The translations under genes and the position numbers were made by a program. 64,000 bases of DNA. Origin: Cytophagales bacterium (lineage in GTDB: Bacteria > Bacteroidota > Bacteroidia > Cytophagales > Spirosomataceae). Positions 56,331-64,000 of this stretch are shown in pieces (the first letter of the stretch is position 1; each line of letters begins with the position of its first letter). Where the stretch lies: positions 92,936-156,935 of the forward strand of contig JAAFKE010000003.1 in NCBI GenBank assembly GCA_013298215.1, read 5' to 3'. The notes beneath the pieces are model-generated. The model saw only the letters and a list, made by a program, of their open reading frames with translations. It did no database searches and had not been told where the DNA came from.

Positions 56331-56351
56331 TTATCCACATAGTTATCCACA
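56331..56351 (+). promoter_or_regulatory. Pair of perfect DnaA boxes
   Basis: TTATCCACA at 56331-56339 and again at 56343-56351, a 12-bp direct repeat unit in the short gap between the terminator and the acyl-CoA dehydrogenase gene. Both are exact E. coli-consensus boxes on the forward strand. Confidence 0.75.
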
Positions 56352-56412: not shown

Positions 56413-58209
56413 ATGGCCAAGCAATTTTACGCTAAACGCGACCTTCAGTTCCAACTCTACGAAATGCTCCACGCCGAGCAACTCACCAAACTTGCCTACT
56501 TTAAAGACCACAGCCGAGAATCTTTCGACATGGTTATTGACGCAGCTGGCCAAATTGCCGACAGTTTGCTCAAACCCTTACTCACGGAGATGGACCGAAA
56601 CGAGCCACAACTCGTAAACGGAACCATCCAGATACACCCAGGTATGCAGGCTATTATCAAACGTTTCGGCGACGATGGTTGGATAAACGCGGGGTTTTCT
56701 TACGACGAGGGCGGCCAGCAAATTCCACAGACAGTCATGAACGCGGCCACGTTTATATTTCAAGCAGCCAACTACTCGTCGAGCGTTTTTCCCTTTTTGA
56801 CGGCAGGCGCGGCCAATCTTCTCCGCAGTTTTGGTTCACAAGACCTCATCAATACTTTTACCCCGAATATGTACGCGGGAGTTTGGCAGGGTACAATGGC
56901 CCTGACCGAACCCGACGCGGGAAGTTCGCTGTCGGACATTACCACCGCCGCCGAAGCAACCGACACGGAGGGTACGTACAAAATCAAAGGCCAAAAAATA
57001 TACATATCGGCGGGCGACCACGATTGCTGCGAGAATGTAGTGCATTTAATGTTGGCTAAAATAAAAGGAGCACCGCTGGGAGCAAAGGGCATCTCGCTGT
57101 TTGTTGTACCAAAAAAACGCTTGACTACCAACGGGTTGCAACCAAACGATGTGCTCACGGCTGGCGTTTACCACAAAATGGGCTACAAAGGCGCACCCAT
57201 TGCTCACCTCATGGTTGGTTCTAACGACGACTGCGAAGGTTATCTGGTTGGCCAACCCAACAAAGGCTTGAACTACATGTTCCAAATGATGAATGAGGCG
57301 CGGGTAGGCGTGGGCATGAACGCCGCCGCCATCGGGACGGCTGCCTACTATGCCTCGCTCGAGTACGCCCGCGAACGTCCGCAGGGGCGGCCAATCAACG
57401 AAAAAGACCCCACCAAACCACAAACGCACATCATCAGGCACGCCGACGTGAAGCGGATGCTGCTGTTCCAAAAATCGGTCGTCGAAGGTTCATTATCTCT
57501 TCTGTTGTATTGCAGCAAATTGTCTGACGTAGCTCACGCGGGCTCAGACAACCAAAAAGCAGAGGCATCGCTATTGCTCGACCTACTCACGCCAGTTGCC
57601 AAGTCATACCCGTCCGAAATGTGTTGCCTCACAACCAGTGCGGCGGTGCAAATTTTGGGTGGTGCGGGCTACACAACCGACTTCCCCGTTGAGCAGTTTT
57701 ACCGCGAAGCGCGCATACATCCCATCCACGAAGGCACAACGGGCATTCATGGGCTTGATTTATTGGGTAGAAAAGTGATGATGAAAAACGGGGAGGCACT
57801 CGCCCTACTGTCGAACGCCATTGTTCAAACCATTGGCGAGGCGCAGCAAATTGAAAAAACCCGCCCACTTGCTCTACAATTAGAAACCGCCCTCGACGAT
57901 CTGGGCAAAACCACCAAGCACCTGCTCACATTGGCCAGCCAAGATACGGAGGTGTTTCTGTCGGATGCCACGCTGTACTTAGAGTTTTTTGGGCTCGTCA
58001 CCATCGGCTGGCAGTGGCTGTCTATGGCCTTGGTGGCGCAACGCAACCTGGCTGATGCCACGTCGCAGGCTGACATTTATTTTTATAACGGAAAACTCGC
58101 CACGGCACGCTATTATTTTGAATACGAACTGGTGAAGGTCGCTTCGCTTTCTGCCCGCCTCACGAGCACCGACACCGTTACTATTGATATGGACGCTAAC
58201 TGGTTTTGA
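56413..58209 (+). CDS. Acyl-CoA dehydrogenase (long, ~600-residue type)
   Basis: 598 residues. The central FAD domain has MALTEPDAGSSLSDITTAAEA (about 163-183) and KGQKIYISAGDHDCCENVVH; the C-terminal helical domain has LNYMFQMMNEARVGVGMNAA and VQILGGAGYTTDFPVEQFYREARIHPIHEGTTGIHGLDLLGRK in consecutive segments, with the C-terminal acyl-CoA dehydrogenase extension after it. It performs the first dehydrogenation of fatty-acid beta-oxidation in the cytoplasm. Stop codon is 4 nt from the ybeY start, so the two are co-transcribed. A pair of DnaA boxes lies 60 nt upstream. Confidence 0.93.
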   Translation: MAKQFYAKRDLQFQLYEMLHAEQLTKLAYFKDHSRESFDMVIDAAGQIADSLLKPLLTEMDRNEPQLVNGTIQIHPGMQAIIKRFGDDGWINAGFSYDEGGQQIPQTVMNAATFIFQAANYSSSVFPFLTAGAANLLRSFGSQDLINTFTPNMYAGVWQGTMALTEPDAGSSLSDITTAAEATDTEGTYKIKGQKIYISAGDHDCCENVVHLMLAKIKGAPLGAKGISLFVVPKKRLTTNGLQPNDVLTAGVYHKMGYKGAPIAHLMVGSNDDCEGYLVGQPNKGLNYMFQMMNEARVGVGMNAAAIGTAAYYASLEYARERPQGRPINEKDPTKPQTHIIRHADVKRMLLFQKSVVEGSLSLLLYCSKLSDVAHAGSDNQKAEASLLLDLLTPVAKSYPSEMCCLTTSAAVQILGGAGYTTDFPVEQFYREARIHPIHEGTTGIHGLDLLGRKVMMKNGEALALLSNAIVQTIGEAQQIEKTRPLALQLETALDDLGKTTKHLLTLASQDTEVFLSDATLYLEFFGLVTIGWQWLSMALVAQRNLADATSQADIYFYNGKLATARYYFEYELVKVASLSARLTSTDTVTIDMDANWF

Positions 58210-58213
58210 TTTT

Positions 58214-58648
58214 ATGATCGCTTTTTTTGAAGAGGACATTGCATTTAAAGTACCCAAGCCACGTTTAGTAAAAGCGTGGCTTAAATCTGTGGCAACTGCC
58301 GAAGGTTTTTTGGCGAAACAACTCAACTATATTTTTTGTTCTGACGAGTACCTGCTGCTCATCAACCAACAGTATTTGTCGCACGACTACTACACCGACA
58401 TTATTACTTTTGACAATTCGAGCGAGGAGTCGAGCGAGCTCGAGGGCGATATTTTTGTGAGCATCGACCGAGTAACCGACAATGCTAAAAACATGGGCGT
58501 TGATTTTGGGGCGGAACTTCTCCGTGTTTTGGTTCACGGGGTTTTGCATTTGTGTGGATACGAGGACACCACCGAAGCTCTAAAATCCGAGATGCGGGCA
58601 AAAGAAGATTTCTACATTAAACTTTATGTTTCCACGAAAAACAGCTAA
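58214..58648 (+). CDS. ybeY: Endoribonuclease YbeY (rRNA maturation factor)
   Basis: 144 residues from the ATG at 58214 (the frame extends 10 codons upstream into the previous gene). [20 protein letters not shown] holds the conserved acidic strand. The metal-binding signature [14 protein letters not shown] (about 113-126) keeps the first two His of HGxLHLxGYDH but has Glu-Asp in place of Asp-His, as in other Bacteroidota YbeY proteins. It processes 16S rRNA 3' ends and supports ribosome quality control. It sits between the acyl-CoA dehydrogenase gene and mnmG in one transcript. Confidence 0.9.
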
Positions 58649-58649
58649 G

Positions 58650-58665
58650 TGTTTCACGTGGAAAC
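58650..58665. promoter_or_regulatory. parS-like palindrome (ParB centromere site candidate)
   Basis: The forward strand reads TGTTTCACGTGGAAAC, 14 of 16 positions matching the parS variant TGTTTCACGTGGAACA and the first eleven matching the canonical TGTTTCACGTGAAACA. It lies 23 nt before the mnmG start, a gene often found near chromosome origins. It could also be a chance palindrome. Confidence 0.45.
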
Positions 58666-58688
58666 TTTATCCAAAAATACCAAATACA

Positions 58689-60551
58689 ATGTTTTCAAAA
58701 TATGATGTGATTGTGGTGGGAGCGGGCCACGCGGGTTGTGAGGCCGCCGCCGCCGCCGCCAACATGGGTTCTAAGGTTTTGCTGATAACAATGAACATGC
58801 AGACCATTGCCCAGATGTCGTGCAACCCCGCAATGGGTGGCGTGGCCAAAGGGCAAATCGTGCGGGAGATTGATGCCCTCGGGGGTCAGTCGGGAATAGT
58901 GAGCGACCGAACGATGATTCAGTTTAGGATGCTCAACCGCTCGAAAGGCCCAGCCATGTGGAGCCCGAGATGCCAGAGCGACCGCCAGATGTTTGCCACC
59001 GAATGGCGAAACATTTTGGAACATACCCCAAACGTGGACTTTTGGCAGGATACTGTAAAAGAAATTATCGTGACCGACGGCTGCGTGGTGGGTGTGAAAA
59101 CAAACTTGGGAATAAACATAGCGTCTGAAACGGTGGTACTTACCAACGGTACGTTTTTGAACGGGCTGATCCACATTGGCGAGAAAAACTTCGGCGGCGG
59201 ACGGACGGGAGAAAACAACTCGAAAGGAATAACCGAGCAACTCATCGAGATGGGGTTTGAGGCAGGACGAATGAAAACGGGGACACCACCACGCGTGGAC
59301 GGACGGAGCCTTGACTACTCTAAAATGGAAGAGCAGCCTGGCGACGAAAACCCAAGTAAGTTTTCTTACAAAAATACGCCGAGGCTCACCAAACAACGGT
59401 CGTGCTGGATAACCTACACCAACGAGGCAGTTCACGAAGTATTGAGGACGGGCTTTGATAAATCGCCCATGTTTTCGGGACGCATAAAAGGGCTCGGGCC
59501 GCGCTACTGCCCATCGGTAGAAGACAAAATAAATAGGTTTGCCGACAAAGACCACCACCAGATATTTGTAGAACCCGAAGGTTGGGAAACAGTGGAGGTT
59601 TATGTGAATGGCTTTTCGACATCGCTGCCCGAAGATATTCAGTTTGAAGCCATGCGCAAAATACCAGGCTTTGAAAACGCCAGGATGTTTCGGCCAGGGT
59701 ATGCCATCGAATACGACTACTTCCCACCAACCCAATTGAAACTTACGTTAGAAACCAAACTGGTGGAGAATCTTTTTTTTGCGGGACAAATAAACGGAAC
59801 CACTGGCTACGAAGAAGCCGCCTGCCAAGGCTTAATGGCTGGCATAAATGCCCACCAAAATGCCCACCAAAAAAATGCTTTCGTATTAAAAAGATCGGAG
59901 GCATACATTGGCGTTTTGATCGACGACCTGGTGAATAAAGGCACCGACGAACCCTATCGGATGTTTACGTCGAGGGCCGAATACCGTACACTTCTTAGAC
60001 AAGACAACGCCGACATTAGACTAACCGAAAAAGGCCATCAGATTGGACTGGCCGACGACGAACGACTGGAAGCAGTTCGGCTAAAAATTGAAAACACCAA
60101 AGAACTAATCGGAAAACTCCAAAGCATAAAAGTTACCCCCGAAGAAATAAACGACTATTTGACGGAAATTGGCACGGCCACAATCCGCGAGAAACAAACC
60201 CTGCACCACCTTTTGAAACGACCCGATATTAACGTAGCGCAACTCCAGCAATTGAAAACAGAGGCCGCCGAACTGTTAGAAAACTACAACGAAGACGTGA
60301 TAGAACAGGCTATCATAACGGTGAAGTACGAGAGCTACATCGAAAAAGAAAAACTAATGGCCGACAAAATGACCAAGCTCGAAGACCTGGCGATAATACC
60401 CGAGTTTAACTACGACAAGATAAAAGCACTCTCTTTTGAAGGACGCGATAAGCTTAAAAAAATGCGCCCCCAGACCATCGGGCAAGCGTCTCGTATCAGC
60501 GGGGTTAGCCCAGCAGATATTTCAGTTTTGATGATTTACATGGGAAGATAA
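58689..60551 (+). CDS. mnmG: tRNA uridine-5-carboxymethylaminomethyl(34) synthesis enzyme MnmG
   Basis: 620 residues from the ATG at 58689; the frame extends to 58626 but [20 protein letters not shown] is the true family start with the FAD-binding GxGxxG. Other marks: [20 protein letters not shown] (about 44-63), the active-site Cys in [36 protein letters not shown] and the C-terminal helical tRNA-binding domain. With MnmE (absent here) it modifies wobble uridine. The methyltransferase gene begins 6 nt after its stop. Confidence 0.97.
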
Positions 60552-60557
60552 CCGCAC

Positions 60558-61445
60558 ATGCACACACTTGATAAATGCCCCAGTTGCCAAGCAACGCTTT
60601 TTTCTGATTGGTTGATTTGCACAGACCACACCGTATCTAACCAGCAATTTAGGATCGTGGGATGCCAAAAATGCGGTCTAAAATTTACCAACCCACGCCC
60701 CAACGAAACCGAAATAGGTGCTTATTACGAATCGGAGGCGTATATTTCGCATACCAACGAGGGCAAGGGTCTAATCGATTTTGTGTACCGCCAAGTGCGA
60801 AAATTGGCCGTGAAGAGTAAAATCAAACTACTAAACGACCTCAAAGCCAACAAAGGCAAACTGCTTGATATTGGCTGCGGAACGGGGTATTTTATGAGCC
60901 AAGCAAAAGAGAATGGATGGGTGGTTGCGGCAACCGAACCTGGCCAAAAACCGCGCGAGGAAGCAGCGAGATTGGCACAAATAGAAGTAGCAGAAACCAT
61001 TTTTGACCTGGATAGGCAGGGTGGGGGAGGGCAGTACGACATCGTGACGATGTGGCACGTACTCGAACACGTTCACGAATTGCACGGCACGATCGGTTGG
61101 ATAAAAGACCACCTAACAACCAACGGAAAGCTGGTTGTGGCCGTGCCAAACCATGAGTCTTACGACGCAAAAGTTTTTCAGGAACACTGGGCAGCCTACG
61201 ATGTGCCGCGCCACTTATACCACTTTTCGGCAGCCTCCATGCGCGAGCTCATGCTCCAGCACGGGCTGAAAATAGAGACTATCAAACCAATGAAATTCGA
61301 CGCATTTTATGTGAGCCTGCTAAGTACAAAATACAAGTATGGTATCACAAAACCATTGCAAGCCTTCTGGACGGGCTTACTATCAAACTTAAAAGCCGAC
61401 CAAAAGCAGTATTCAAGCCTCATTTACGTAATCAGTAAAATATAG
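60558..61445 (+). CDS. Class I SAM-dependent methyltransferase with N-terminal zinc ribbon
   Basis: 295 residues. A zinc ribbon at the start (CPSCQ...CQKCGL, about 8-41) with the LKFTNPRPNETEIGAYYES segment is followed by the methyltransferase fold: LLDIGCGTGYFMSQAKENGW (about 101-120, motif I), VTMWHVLEHVHEL (motif IV region) and AVPNHESYDAKVFQEHWAAYDVP, typical of the Methyltransf_23-type sugar/lipid or small-molecule methyltransferases. Substrate unknown. Located 6 nt after mnmG, followed by a terminator. Confidence 0.9.
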   Translation: MHTLDKCPSCQATLFSDWLICTDHTVSNQQFRIVGCQKCGLKFTNPRPNETEIGAYYESEAYISHTNEGKGLIDFVYRQVRKLAVKSKIKLLNDLKANKGKLLDIGCGTGYFMSQAKENGWVVAATEPGQKPREEAARLAQIEVAETIFDLDRQGGGGQYDIVTMWHVLEHVHELHGTIGWIKDHLTTNGKLVVAVPNHESYDAKVFQEHWAAYDVPRHLYHFSAASMRELMLQHGLKIETIKPMKFDAFYVSLLSTKYKYGITKPLQAFWTGLLSNLKADQKQYSSLIYVISKI

Positions 61446-61457
61446 TCGGATGCACCA

Positions 61458-61494
61458 AAAAGCCCCCAATGTCGTTTAAACGTTGGGGGCTTTT
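61458..61494 (+). terminator. Terminator after the methyltransferase gene
   Basis: Stem of about 14-15 pairs (61458-61472 with 61480-61494), core AGCCCCCAA/TTGGGGGCT, ending in T4. It ends the acyl-CoA dehydrogenase-ybeY-mnmG-methyltransferase transcript. Confidence 0.88.
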
Positions 61495-61510
61495 ACTTAC
61501 AAAAAATACC

Positions 61511-63154
61511 ATGAAACACACTATTTATAGCCGTAATGTTGAGCTACTCTTTGCATTTTGGACGAGCTTATGGCTACTCGGATGCGCCCAACAGATACCG
61601 CCCACGGGAGGGAAAAAAGATATTATTGCCCCAAAATTGATTAGGACGATCCCGCAGAACGAACAAACAAATTACAAAGGGAGAACCATAGAATTGTTTT
61701 TTGACGAATACATCGAAATCCAGAACCTCCAGCAAAAACTGCTCATAACGCCCAACGTGAACCAGGAGGATTATGAGTTCAAGGCAAAACCTACCTCTTT
61801 TTTGATTAAGTTTAGAAAGAGTTTAGACTCTAACAAAACGTATTCGCTCAATTTTGGCGATGCCATAAAAGACTTTGCGGAGAAAAACCCTGCCCAAAAT
61901 CTGCGATTCGTTTTTAGTACGGGTGCGGCCATCGACTCGGCCTCGGTAGGCGGCGAGGTGCGAGATTCTGAAACCGATAACCCTGTTTTTGATGCCTTGG
62001 TAGGGCTGTATAAGTGCAGCGACACGCTCAATCCAGAGAAAATGAAACCGTATTATTTTGCCCGAACCGACAGCTCGGGTACGTATCAGATAAACAATGT
62101 CCAGGCAGATCATTACCAAGTTATTGCCATAACCGACGCAAACCGAACCTTGACCTACCAACCAAAATTAGAAAAAATTGGGTTCATCAAAGATTCTATC
62201 AACGTAAAGGCATCCGACAAACTCACCGACGTGAACTTTCGGGCATTCAAGGCAGACTATTCGCCGCCGAAATTTAAGGGAACGCTCCCGAGGGTGAAGG
62301 ACTACTCACTACTTTTCGACAAGGGCATCCGAGAGTTTAAAGTCGATTACCTCAACAAAGGAGACTCGCTGGTGGGGTTTCAGCCTGGCCCAACCGAGAT
62401 TAAATTCTACAACGTGCTTAACAAAACGGACACGATTCCAATCAAAATAACCGTCAGAGACTCATTGGGTTTGGAGCTGGTACACAACCAAAAGATAAAG
62501 TTTAGGGAGTCCAAAGCGTCGGCCAAAGCCAAGGAGGGAGACAAGGAAGCACTGACTGTTCAGGTAAAACCGCAGACGGGAGAAGAGCTAACAAAAGATT
62601 TTGAAGCCACGTTTAGCTTCAATAAACCGATCGTAAAATACGATTTGGGCGGCATAAAACTAACATCGGACAGTGCCACCACCGAAAAACTGAACGCCTC
62701 TACGTTTGTCTGGACGAACAACAATACGAGACTGGTACTGAATACTAAAATCTCAGCGCGTAGGAAGATTCGGCTCATTTTACCCAAAAATACCTTTTTT
62801 AGTGTGCAAAACGACACACTGAGGGCCGACACCCTCAACTACAAAATGGCCAACGAAGATGACTACGCCATTGTGAAGGGCAGTGTGAAGAACGCCAAAA
62901 CGAATGTGATAGTGGAGCTGATGGACGAAAAATACACGGTTATTAAGTCGGTTGTGGGCAAGAAAGAGTACGAGTTCGCGTTTGTGAAACCAGGCACGTA
63001 TTTTGTAAGGGTGATTGTAGATACCAACAACAACAATAAGTGGGACAGTGGTAACTACAAACAAAAGCTACAACCCGAAAAAATAGTGTATTATTCGGAT
63101 GCCTTCAAAGTGCGCAAAAACTTCATTATTGATGGAATAGATTTTGAACTCTAA
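61511..63154 (+). CDS. Lipoprotein with N-terminal Ig-like (Big_5-type) domain
   Basis: 547 residues from the ATG at 61511; the open frame begins at 61469 inside the terminator, so the inner ATG is preferred. Lipoprotein signal (FAFWTSLWLLGCAQQ, Cys near 25), then the Bacteroidota 'PPTGGKKD' start and an Ig-like domain (KLIRTIPQNEQTNYKGRTIEL, FFDEYIEIQNLQQKLLITPN). Later parts show SGTYQINNVQADHYQVIAI and PGTYFVRVIVDTNNNNKWD, the carboxypeptidase-regulatory-like or cohesin-type strand pattern. Widespread lipoproteins of unknown role, probably in the cell envelope. It is the last gene before the DnaA-box region. Confidence 0.85.
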   Translation: MKHTIYSRNVELLFAFWTSLWLLGCAQQIPPTGGKKDIIAPKLIRTIPQNEQTNYKGRTIELFFDEYIEIQNLQQKLLITPNVNQEDYEFKAKPTSFLIKFRKSLDSNKTYSLNFGDAIKDFAEKNPAQNLRFVFSTGAAIDSASVGGEVRDSETDNPVFDALVGLYKCSDTLNPEKMKPYYFARTDSSGTYQINNVQADHYQVIAITDANRTLTYQPKLEKIGFIKDSINVKASDKLTDVNFRAFKADYSPPKFKGTLPRVKDYSLLFDKGIREFKVDYLNKGDSLVGFQPGPTEIKFYNVLNKTDTIPIKITVRDSLGLELVHNQKIKFRESKASAKAKEGDKEALTVQVKPQTGEELTKDFEATFSFNKPIVKYDLGGIKLTSDSATTEKLNASTFVWTNNNTRLVLNTKISARRKIRLILPKNTFFSVQNDTLRADTLNYKMANEDDYAIVKGSVKNAKTNVIVELMDEKYTVIKSVVGKKEYEFAFVKPGTYFVRVIVDTNNNNKWDSGNYKQKLQPEKIVYYSDAFKVRKNFIIDGIDFEL

Positions 63155-63619
63155 AAAAATAGTTATGCACATTATTGTTCAAAACAGTGTGGATAACCCG
63201 TTATATGTGGACACAATGGTGGATAACTATCAAAAATGAGTGGATAAGGGTGTGAATAAAAATTAAAAAATGTGGACAAGAGATTACCCAAAACACAATT
63301 GTTGGCAAACTATCGGTTTTAAACAAGTTGTGGGGTATACTTTAAACACACCAACAAGTGGACAACGCACGGTGGATATCTTTATAAACAATCAACAATA
63401 AAGTGTGGATAATAAAAAATAGGTGTGGTAATGAATAACTTAGGTGTGGATAAACTTAAAATAAAGTGGATAACTTGCTACTTGTTCACAAAGAGTTAGA
63501 AAACGGTTGTGGACAAAGTTGTGGATAAGTGGTTTGTAAACATATCCACACACAATTATGATAGATAATAATAATTAATATAAAATATTTTTAATACTTA
63601 TTAAAAGTAAAAAAAGAAA
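63155..63619. other. Candidate chromosomal replication origin (oriC): DnaA-box cluster plus AT-rich stretch
   Basis: 465 nt without a gene. Perfect DnaA boxes (TGTGGATAA on the forward strand) at 63188, 63404, 63445 and 63520, plus one at 63621 over the next start codon. One-mismatch boxes at 63218, 63239, 63251, 63271, 63465 and 63508, and in opposite orientation at 63542 (ATATCCACA). The last 70 bases (63551-63620) contain only 7 G or C by hand count, a likely unwinding element. The density of same-orientation boxes is far beyond chance. No dnaA or dnaN gene is in the window. Confidence 0.8.
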
Positions 63620-63620
63620 A
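63551..63620. other. AT-rich candidate DNA unwinding element
   Basis: 7 G+C in 70 bases, directly right of the DnaA boxes, with a run of TAA triplets at 63566-63574. Functional role is inferred from position; a second AT-rich candidate lies left of the first box (63150-63187). Confidence 0.5.
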
Positions 63621-64000
63621 TGTGGATAACTGTAAGAAATAGATTTTGGCTCATGCTGTTGGTAATATTGGGTGTGAGCAATGTTTGGGGACAGTCGGAC
63701 AGAGAACTGGCAGAAGAATACCTCAGAAAAGGGGAGTGCGACAAGGCGGTGGTGCTGTTTCAGAAGGGGTTAAAGAAAACGTTCGATAAAAACGCGTTGA
63801 GAAAATACGTGGCCTGCCAAATAAAACTGAAAGATTGGGAGGAGGCCGAAAGATTTTTTAAGAAGCAGCTTAGGTCAAAAGAAAATTGGGCCGCTTTTTA
63901 TGAACTATACTACGGCCGGATTTTAGAGGCTGCCGGTAAATCAGAACTGGCCAGTGAAAGGTACGAATCTGCAATAAAAACTGATTGGGGCGCATCGCCC
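63620..64000 (+). CDS. Secreted TPR-like protein, C-terminus cut by window edge
   Basis: Open from ATG at 63620 to the end of the window (127 codons seen). A signal-peptide-like start (MWITVRNRFWLMLLVILGVS, cleavage near VWGQ) is followed by repeated helical pairs of tetratricopeptide type: LAEEYLRKGECDKAVVLFQK, YVACQIKLKDWEEAERFFKK and LYYGRILEAAGKSELASERY. A perfect DnaA box (63621-63629) overlaps its first codons, so its expression may respond to DnaA. Function unknown. Confidence 0.7.
   Translation, partial: MWITVRNRFWLMLLVILGVSNVWGQSDRELAEEYLRKGECDKAVVLFQKGLKKTFDKNALRKYVACQIKLKDWEEAERFFKKQLRSKENWAAFYELYYGRILEAAGKSELASERYESAIKTDWGASP

Follow-up and report, generated by a model that had tools for sequence, protein, structure and literature searches.

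The locus considered here raises the question of where the chromosome of a Cytophagales bacterium (Spirosomataceae; GenBank assembly GCA_013298215.1) starts to replicate. The window analyzed is a stretch of 64,000 nucleotides (contig JAAFKE010000003.1, positions 92,936 to 156,935). Close to its right end, in the gap between a gene for an Ig-like lipoprotein and a gene for a TPR protein, numerous DnaA boxes are crowded beside a tract very poor in G+C. A reading made from the letters alone, referred to here as the sequence-only reading, had proposed this gap as the chromosomal origin of replication (oriC). The present analysis supports that proposal: positions 63155-63629 are very probably the oriC of this organism, because the box cluster, the AT tract, the intergenic site, the occurrence of a single cluster of perfect boxes in the genome and the conservation of the same locus in many Cytophagales all fit such a role. 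The genome is a draft of 3.55 Mb in 65 contigs, in which the contig of the window is designated C23.

63155..63629, no strand assigned: predicted oriC, from the stop of the lipoprotein gene (63154) through the box that overlaps the start of the TPR gene

DnaA boxes and base composition

A DnaA box was defined as TTATCCACA and a match as a site with at most one mismatch to it; the majority orientation at this locus is TGTGGATAA on the + strand. Within 467 nt, 13 matches start between 63163 and 63621, five of them perfect (63188, 63404, 63445, 63520 and 63621) and eight with one mismatch. The sequence-only reading had the same number of perfect boxes and counted seven with one mismatch, which the recount corrects to eight. 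Its statement that nearly all boxes share one orientation agrees with the 11 of 13 found here, the boxes at 63163 and 63542 being reversed. Most of the boxes fall into the following groups.

63163..63279, both strands: left box group, with boxes at 63163 (+), 63188 (-, perfect), 63218 (-), 63239 (-), 63251 (-) and 63271 (-)
63404..63473, - strand: middle box group, with boxes at 63404 (perfect), 63445 (perfect) and 63465
63508..63528, - strand: box pair with a pitch of 12 bp, at 63508 (one mismatch) and 63520 (perfect)

Judged by the 12 matches across the other 63.5 kb, 0.09 boxes are expected per 475 nt versus 13 observed (Poisson 4e-24). First-order Markov copies of the region (n=1000) contained 0.4 boxes on average and four at most, and a scan of the window found no more than two boxes in any 475-nt stretch clear of the cluster. 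Genome-wide there are 34 perfect boxes; five of these lie here and form the sole cluster among perfect boxes. The looser pattern TTWTNCACA is only mildly enriched over the whole window (13 occurrences versus a shuffle mean of 7.8). The 11 boxes on the same strand show no stable signal of helical phasing, which was dropped as a candidate feature (p about 0.003 at a period of 10.25 and 0.86 at 10.5; five periods tried).

63551..63620, no strand assigned: AT tract, the predicted DNA unwinding element (DUE), which includes the lowest 70-nt G+C of the window

The minimum in this tract is 6 G+C in 70 nt (stretches starting at 63552 and 63554), and all 70-nt stretches of the window with at most 9 G+C start within 63401-63600. 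The AT-rich 70 bp that had been described beside the boxes are thereby confirmed as a tract, with a G+C count of 6 in place of 7.

The sole other perfect boxes of the genome that are less than 500 nt apart are also located in the window, at 56331-56351 (+ strand), 6.8 kb left of the cluster. These two boxes are intergenic, lie 12 bp apart and directly follow a G-run/C-run hairpin with a T-run. No counterpart of these perfect boxes was found in three Runella loci.

Core pair and facing box

63534..63550, + strand: predicted unwinding platform, two overlapping co-oriented boxes with a pitch of 8 bp, directed into the AT tract
63602..63619, + strand: six trio-like triplets (TAA AAG TAA AAA AAG AAA), directed toward the facing box and 1 nt away from it
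63621..63629, - strand: perfect DnaA box in facing orientation past the AT tract, with an overlap into the initial codons of the TPR open reading frame

The core pair of the window consists of TTGTAAACA (three mismatches, at 63534) and ATATCCACA (one mismatch, at 63542), which overlap by one base, and is followed by CACAATTATGATAGATAATAATAAT. Neither this pair nor the facing box was mentioned in the sequence-only reading. With a 17-nt matrix built from the box pairs of relatives, the window being excluded, 63534 (+) is the top site of the window on both strands (20.6 bits versus 14.7 bits for the next site). In the relatives two overlapping co-oriented boxes often precede the AT tract, the second being the box nearest to it; the pitch of the pair in 57 loci is 8 bp in 39, 9 bp in 2 and 12 bp in 4, and a pair is missing from 12. 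A TAAT, mostly in the form [C/T]TAAT, starts 2-7 nt past the anchored box in 28 of the relatives' 58 rows, compared with 8-17 of 58 at four control offsets. A count of TAAT-type motifs after a mechanically chosen box (6/58 versus 74/971) was discarded, since the choice often fell on the upstream box of the pair and this made the count uninformative.

The core pattern TTRTCCACWTATCCACANNCYTAAT, with up to two mismatches, is present in 46 of 241 genomes of the order. It gives 47 hits and is single in 45 genomes, while the reversed pattern gives two hits. The search was blind to genes, and the lipoprotein gene, the TPR gene or both are less than 1.5 kb away in 21 of the 30 core loci that were fetched from these 47 hits.

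Rules described for the basal unwinding system of other bacteria (PMC8287927) were applied to the same sites. A box with at most two mismatches beside a second one with at most four is present, with one mismatch at 63542 and three at 63534. At least three trios of the form 3'-NAN-5' within 16 nt are found next to 63542 (four trios, spacer 14) as well as next to 63621 (seven trios, spacer 1); this trio rule is weak as a test, since it holds for 45 of the 179 window boxes. The box-proximal trio 3'-GAT-5', which is the commonest form and optional, is absent beside 63542 and 63621; relatives often show its complement, CTA.

The facing box of the window is perfect and lies 70 nt beyond the core; 63534-63550 (+) and 63621-63629 (-) bracket the AT tract with opposite polarity, a statement on layout and not on membership in a known class. 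Among 112 loci of relatives, 68 have a site of at least 16 bits and 58 one of at least 19 bits, 48 of these 58 being distinct. Past the AT tract a box of opposite orientation (at most one mismatch) occurs in 23 of the 48 distinct loci, in 21 of the 23 at a distance of 59-68 nt; a box of the same orientation occurs in 2 of 48. Shuffled tracts yield an opposite box in 1.8% and a same-orientation box in 0.7% of cases. Six trio-like triplets are reached by 1.1% of shuffles, a value that applies to a run picked after it had been seen. The run is particular to this genome, because the 23 relatives have only 0-3 such triplets before their facing boxes.

Conservation of the locus in relatives

The gap proper comprises 63155-63619, between the lipoprotein stop at 63154 and the TPR start at 63620. 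The flanking genes are as follows.

58184..58648, + strand: ybeY (Pfam YbeY, 2e-25)
58626..60551, + strand: mnmG, also called gidA (Pfam GIDA, 8.7e-168)
60558..61445, + strand: methyltransferase gene (Pfam Methyltransf_23, 1.2e-26)
61469..63154, + strand: Ig-like (Big_5) protein gene (Pfam Big_5, 3.8e-15); the label lipoprotein is that of the sequence-only reading
63620..64000, + strand: TPR-protein gene (Pfam TPR_14, 5.4e-07), truncated by the window end, which is the contig end

Of these neighbors, ybeY, mnmG, the methyltransferase gene and the TPR gene recur in relatives. Comparison of the gap across relatives, a check that the sequence-only reading had itself suggested, revealed boxes conserved at the same locus in many Cytophagales. 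A scan with MnmG was evaluated for the best 80 of 589 loci, with three loci from Runella (Cytophagales, Spirosomataceae) on top. Clusters were scored within 500 nt, a perfect box counting 2 and a one-mismatch box 1, with a threshold of at least 7. Seventy of the best 80 loci have at least 4.5 kb of downstream sequence; in 35 of them a cluster is present no more than 5 kb downstream of mnmG, and in 25 of these its distance is 2.49-2.65 kb. No cluster was found upstream of mnmG in any of the 66 loci with 5 kb of upstream sequence. The lipoprotein search gave a match in 58 of 59 genomes, and the cluster score is at least 7 within 1.5 kb of this gene in 21 of the best 29 loci from other genomes. 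The lipoprotein and MnmG locus sets share a few contigs, e.g., L107/L016 and L110/L018.

Two genomes, G004 and G031, lack the Ig-like protein gene at the predicted origin. The perfect-box cluster of G004 is located at 6.62 Mb and its lipoprotein gene at 4.32 Mb; the single core-pattern match of G031 is located at 3.25 Mb and its lipoprotein gene at 2.17 Mb. Ten boxes in G004 and five in G031 are located, together with the core, in the gap that separates the mnmG-methyltransferase block from the TPR gene. G004 has six perfect boxes, four of them within its TPR gene. The relocated Ig-like protein gene is not accompanied by a box cluster at its new place (L210 in G004, L115 in G031). The boxes and the core stay between the block and the TPR gene; therefore the site keeps its place and the lipoprotein gene can leave.

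GC skew and position of dnaA

GC skew was sampled in 20 stretches of 20 kb on each of six single-contig chromosomes and interpolated; due to this sparse sampling the resolution is about 100 kb. In three of the six the skew minimum falls near the gap, at distances of 126 kb (G021), 95 kb (G018) and 96 kb (G028). A second block of positive skew is present in G018 at 1.5-1.8 Mb. Agreement that is only local was found in G004, where the skew changes sign from the 6.5-Mb sample to the 6.8-Mb sample, one on each side of the gap, and in G031, where the skew is negative in the four stretches located left of the gap or at it and positive in the three to its right.

The dnaA gene was found in all ten genomes queried. 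It is 1.0-2.8 Mb away from the gap in G021, G018, G028, G059, G040 and G004, and in G018 and G001 it lies no more than 0.6 kb from base 1 of its contig (G018:C1 and G001:C6), the predicted origin of G018 being 1.2 Mb off. In the genome of the window dnaA is located on another contig, and the 20 kb surrounding it (L008) contain six boxes (at most one mismatch) and no cluster. Its absence from the window, which had been described as usual for Bacteroidota, is consistent with a report that Bacteroidetes commonly have their oriC far away from dnaA (PMC4755523). A second, partial DnaA-domain match (36.6 bits, 267-aa frame) occurs in G021 (G021:C1:1267644-1267946).

Evaluation of alternative explanations

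Several observations weigh against the gap as oriC or against the core described for it. In the own genome the skew does not flip between C23 (-0.009) and C4 (-0.006), and fourfold sites balanced for gene direction also show no flip (-0.015 and -0.022, respectively), so that this genome, in which the skew is weak, provides no skew confirmation of the origin. The skew minimum is 1.1 Mb (G040), 1.2 Mb (G004) and 1.7 Mb (G059, Hymenobacter sp. BT18) from the gap on the other three chromosomes; in G040 and G059 the skew disagrees or is too weak. The gap holds just four boxes (at most one mismatch) in G018 and two in G028, with the core present, which slightly lowers the confidence in the oriC assignment. 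The remaining 35 of the 70 mnmG loci are below the cluster threshold, including those of Pontibacter, Emticicia, Roseivirga spongicola and many non-Cytophagales. The pattern TTRTCCACWTATCCACANNCYTAAT, with up to two mismatches, has no match in the own genome, where the core is degenerate, with three mismatches in the upper box and no TAAT directly after the pair. The full formal rules of the basal unwinding system are lenient, as 31 of the 179 window boxes pass them. An order-wide exact search for the pair together with a facing box matched 13 of 390 genomes (19 hits), and its same-orientation control matched 17 of 390 (also 19 hits); it is uninformative, and no support, because both patterns also match other boxes of the clusters.

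A locus for titration or reactivation of DnaA (datA- or DARS-like), which would not be a start site, is very unlikely. It would account for the many boxes, for the missing skew flip in the own genome and for the skew minima elsewhere in G040, G059 and G004. It would not account for an AT tract with a core directed into it, conserved in place, or for the three relatives that have their skew minimum near this gap, and the true origin would need to lack a perfect-box cluster, since the genome has only this one. There is hardly any probability that the locus takes no part in chromosome initiation and that its boxes instead serve a plasmid-type origin or a TPR-gene promoter under DnaA control. Recurrence of ybeY, mnmG, the methyltransferase gene and the TPR gene as neighbors in relatives speaks against both. 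Eight promoter-like matches (shuffle mean 3.0, sd 1.9) and the overlap of the last box with the TPR start would suit a promoter, but 13 boxes exceed what a promoter would require. At the sensitivity used, a search of 72,556 plasmid records gave no match to the region.

With the gap taken as oriC, the way in which it opens is to be considered separately. Somewhat favored is the usual bacterial model of opening from one side, with the box at 63621 being a cluster box that incidentally lies past the AT tract. The DUE of E. coli is described as flanked on one side (PMC6742236), a facing box with at most one mismatch is missing in 25 of the 48 distinct loci, and the order-wide exact search gave facing boxes no excess. 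An incidental box is harder to reconcile with the frequency of facing boxes relative to shuffled tracts and to same-orientation boxes, and with the narrow range of their distances. We put forward, tentatively, that Cytophagales origins may be two-sided: the overlapping pair and an opposing box would bracket the AT tract at a near-fixed distance of about 62 nt (roughly six helical turns), and DnaA oligomers from both sides, one per strand, would each place one helicase.

Comparison with described origins

The oriC of E. coli is located between gidA and mioC (PMC10225481). The locus resembles E. coli-type origins in its box cluster beside an AT-rich unwinding element and in the nearby mnmG (gidA). 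It differs in the two genes (about 2.6 kb) between mnmG and the cluster and in the facing box past the AT tract, the E. coli DUE being the one-sided case mentioned above. The oriC predicted for Prevotella intermedia, like those of other Bacteroidetes, shares with the locus the multiple boxes and the distance from dnaA, and is placed at a skew transition (PMC4755523); the comparison covers these traits.

On the box strand, the trios of the basal unwinding system read as triplets resembling 5'-CTA-3', in which the T is fixed (PMC8287927; PMC8235120). Common to this system in Bacillus subtilis (boxes 6/7 plus DnaA-trios) and to the locus are a co-oriented pair directed into an AT tract and trio-like triplets (PMC8287927; PMC8235120; PMC10316083). 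Here the 8-bp-pitch overlap in 39 of 57 loci and the recurring second, facing box are different.

The DUEs of archaea are flanked by elements often of opposite polarity, which are likely to be important for the symmetric loading of two helicases (PMC6742236). Archaeal origins with opposing origin recognition box (ORB) elements resemble the locus in that the initiator sites flanking an AT-rich DUE differ in polarity from one side to the other (PMC6742236). They use Orc1/Cdc6 and MCM, not DnaA and a bacterial helicase, and the likeness is one of layout only, homology not being claimed. In P1-type plasmid origins the DUE also lies between initiator sites (DnaA, RepA) on both sides (PMC5043065); in contrast, no Rep gene was seen here, where none was searched for, and no plasmid record matched.

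Proposed course of initiation and significance

In the proposed course, DnaA would first occupy the boxes at 63163-63528. From the overlapping pair at 63534-63550 it would be handed onto the single-stranded AT tract, like in the basal unwinding system elsewhere, and DnaA on the facing box at 63621-63629 may act likewise from the opposite side, across the triplets at 63602-63619. Two-sided action of this kind would provide one entry point per strand for two helicases.

As an origin, the locus belongs to a known type; its variant feature, the overlapping pair that recurs together with a facing box, merits testing. None of the openly licensed papers listed in the literature search deals with the Cytophagales origin core or describes this variant; DoriC and most subscription papers lie outside this search, and the locus may well be in DoriC. 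For many Cytophagales the result replaces dnaA by another testable address of oriC, which is downstream of mnmG and its neighbors and upstream of the TPR gene. In G018, whose record has dnaA at its start, growth rates estimated with dnaA as the origin would be wrong. Directional loading of a helicase onto each strand is named as a task for future studies (PMC6742236). If the facing boxes work as read, the placement of two helicases on opposite strands could be tested with short DNA, and if the two-sided reading is true, these origins would be a DnaA-based counterpart of the archaeal layout of facing sites.

Further observations

No terminator-like sites were found in 62900-63800, and positions 60000-64000 have no Rfam match at gathering scores. 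The TPR gene is broken at the contig end, and its rest is located on the end of contig C4, with 41 identical residues common to both parts. The C4 part contains three further DnaA-like boxes inside 50 nt. Contigs of relatives (L013-L020, L023 and L024) stop about 7-9 kb downstream of mnmG, as though a repeat were located equally far past the predicted origin.
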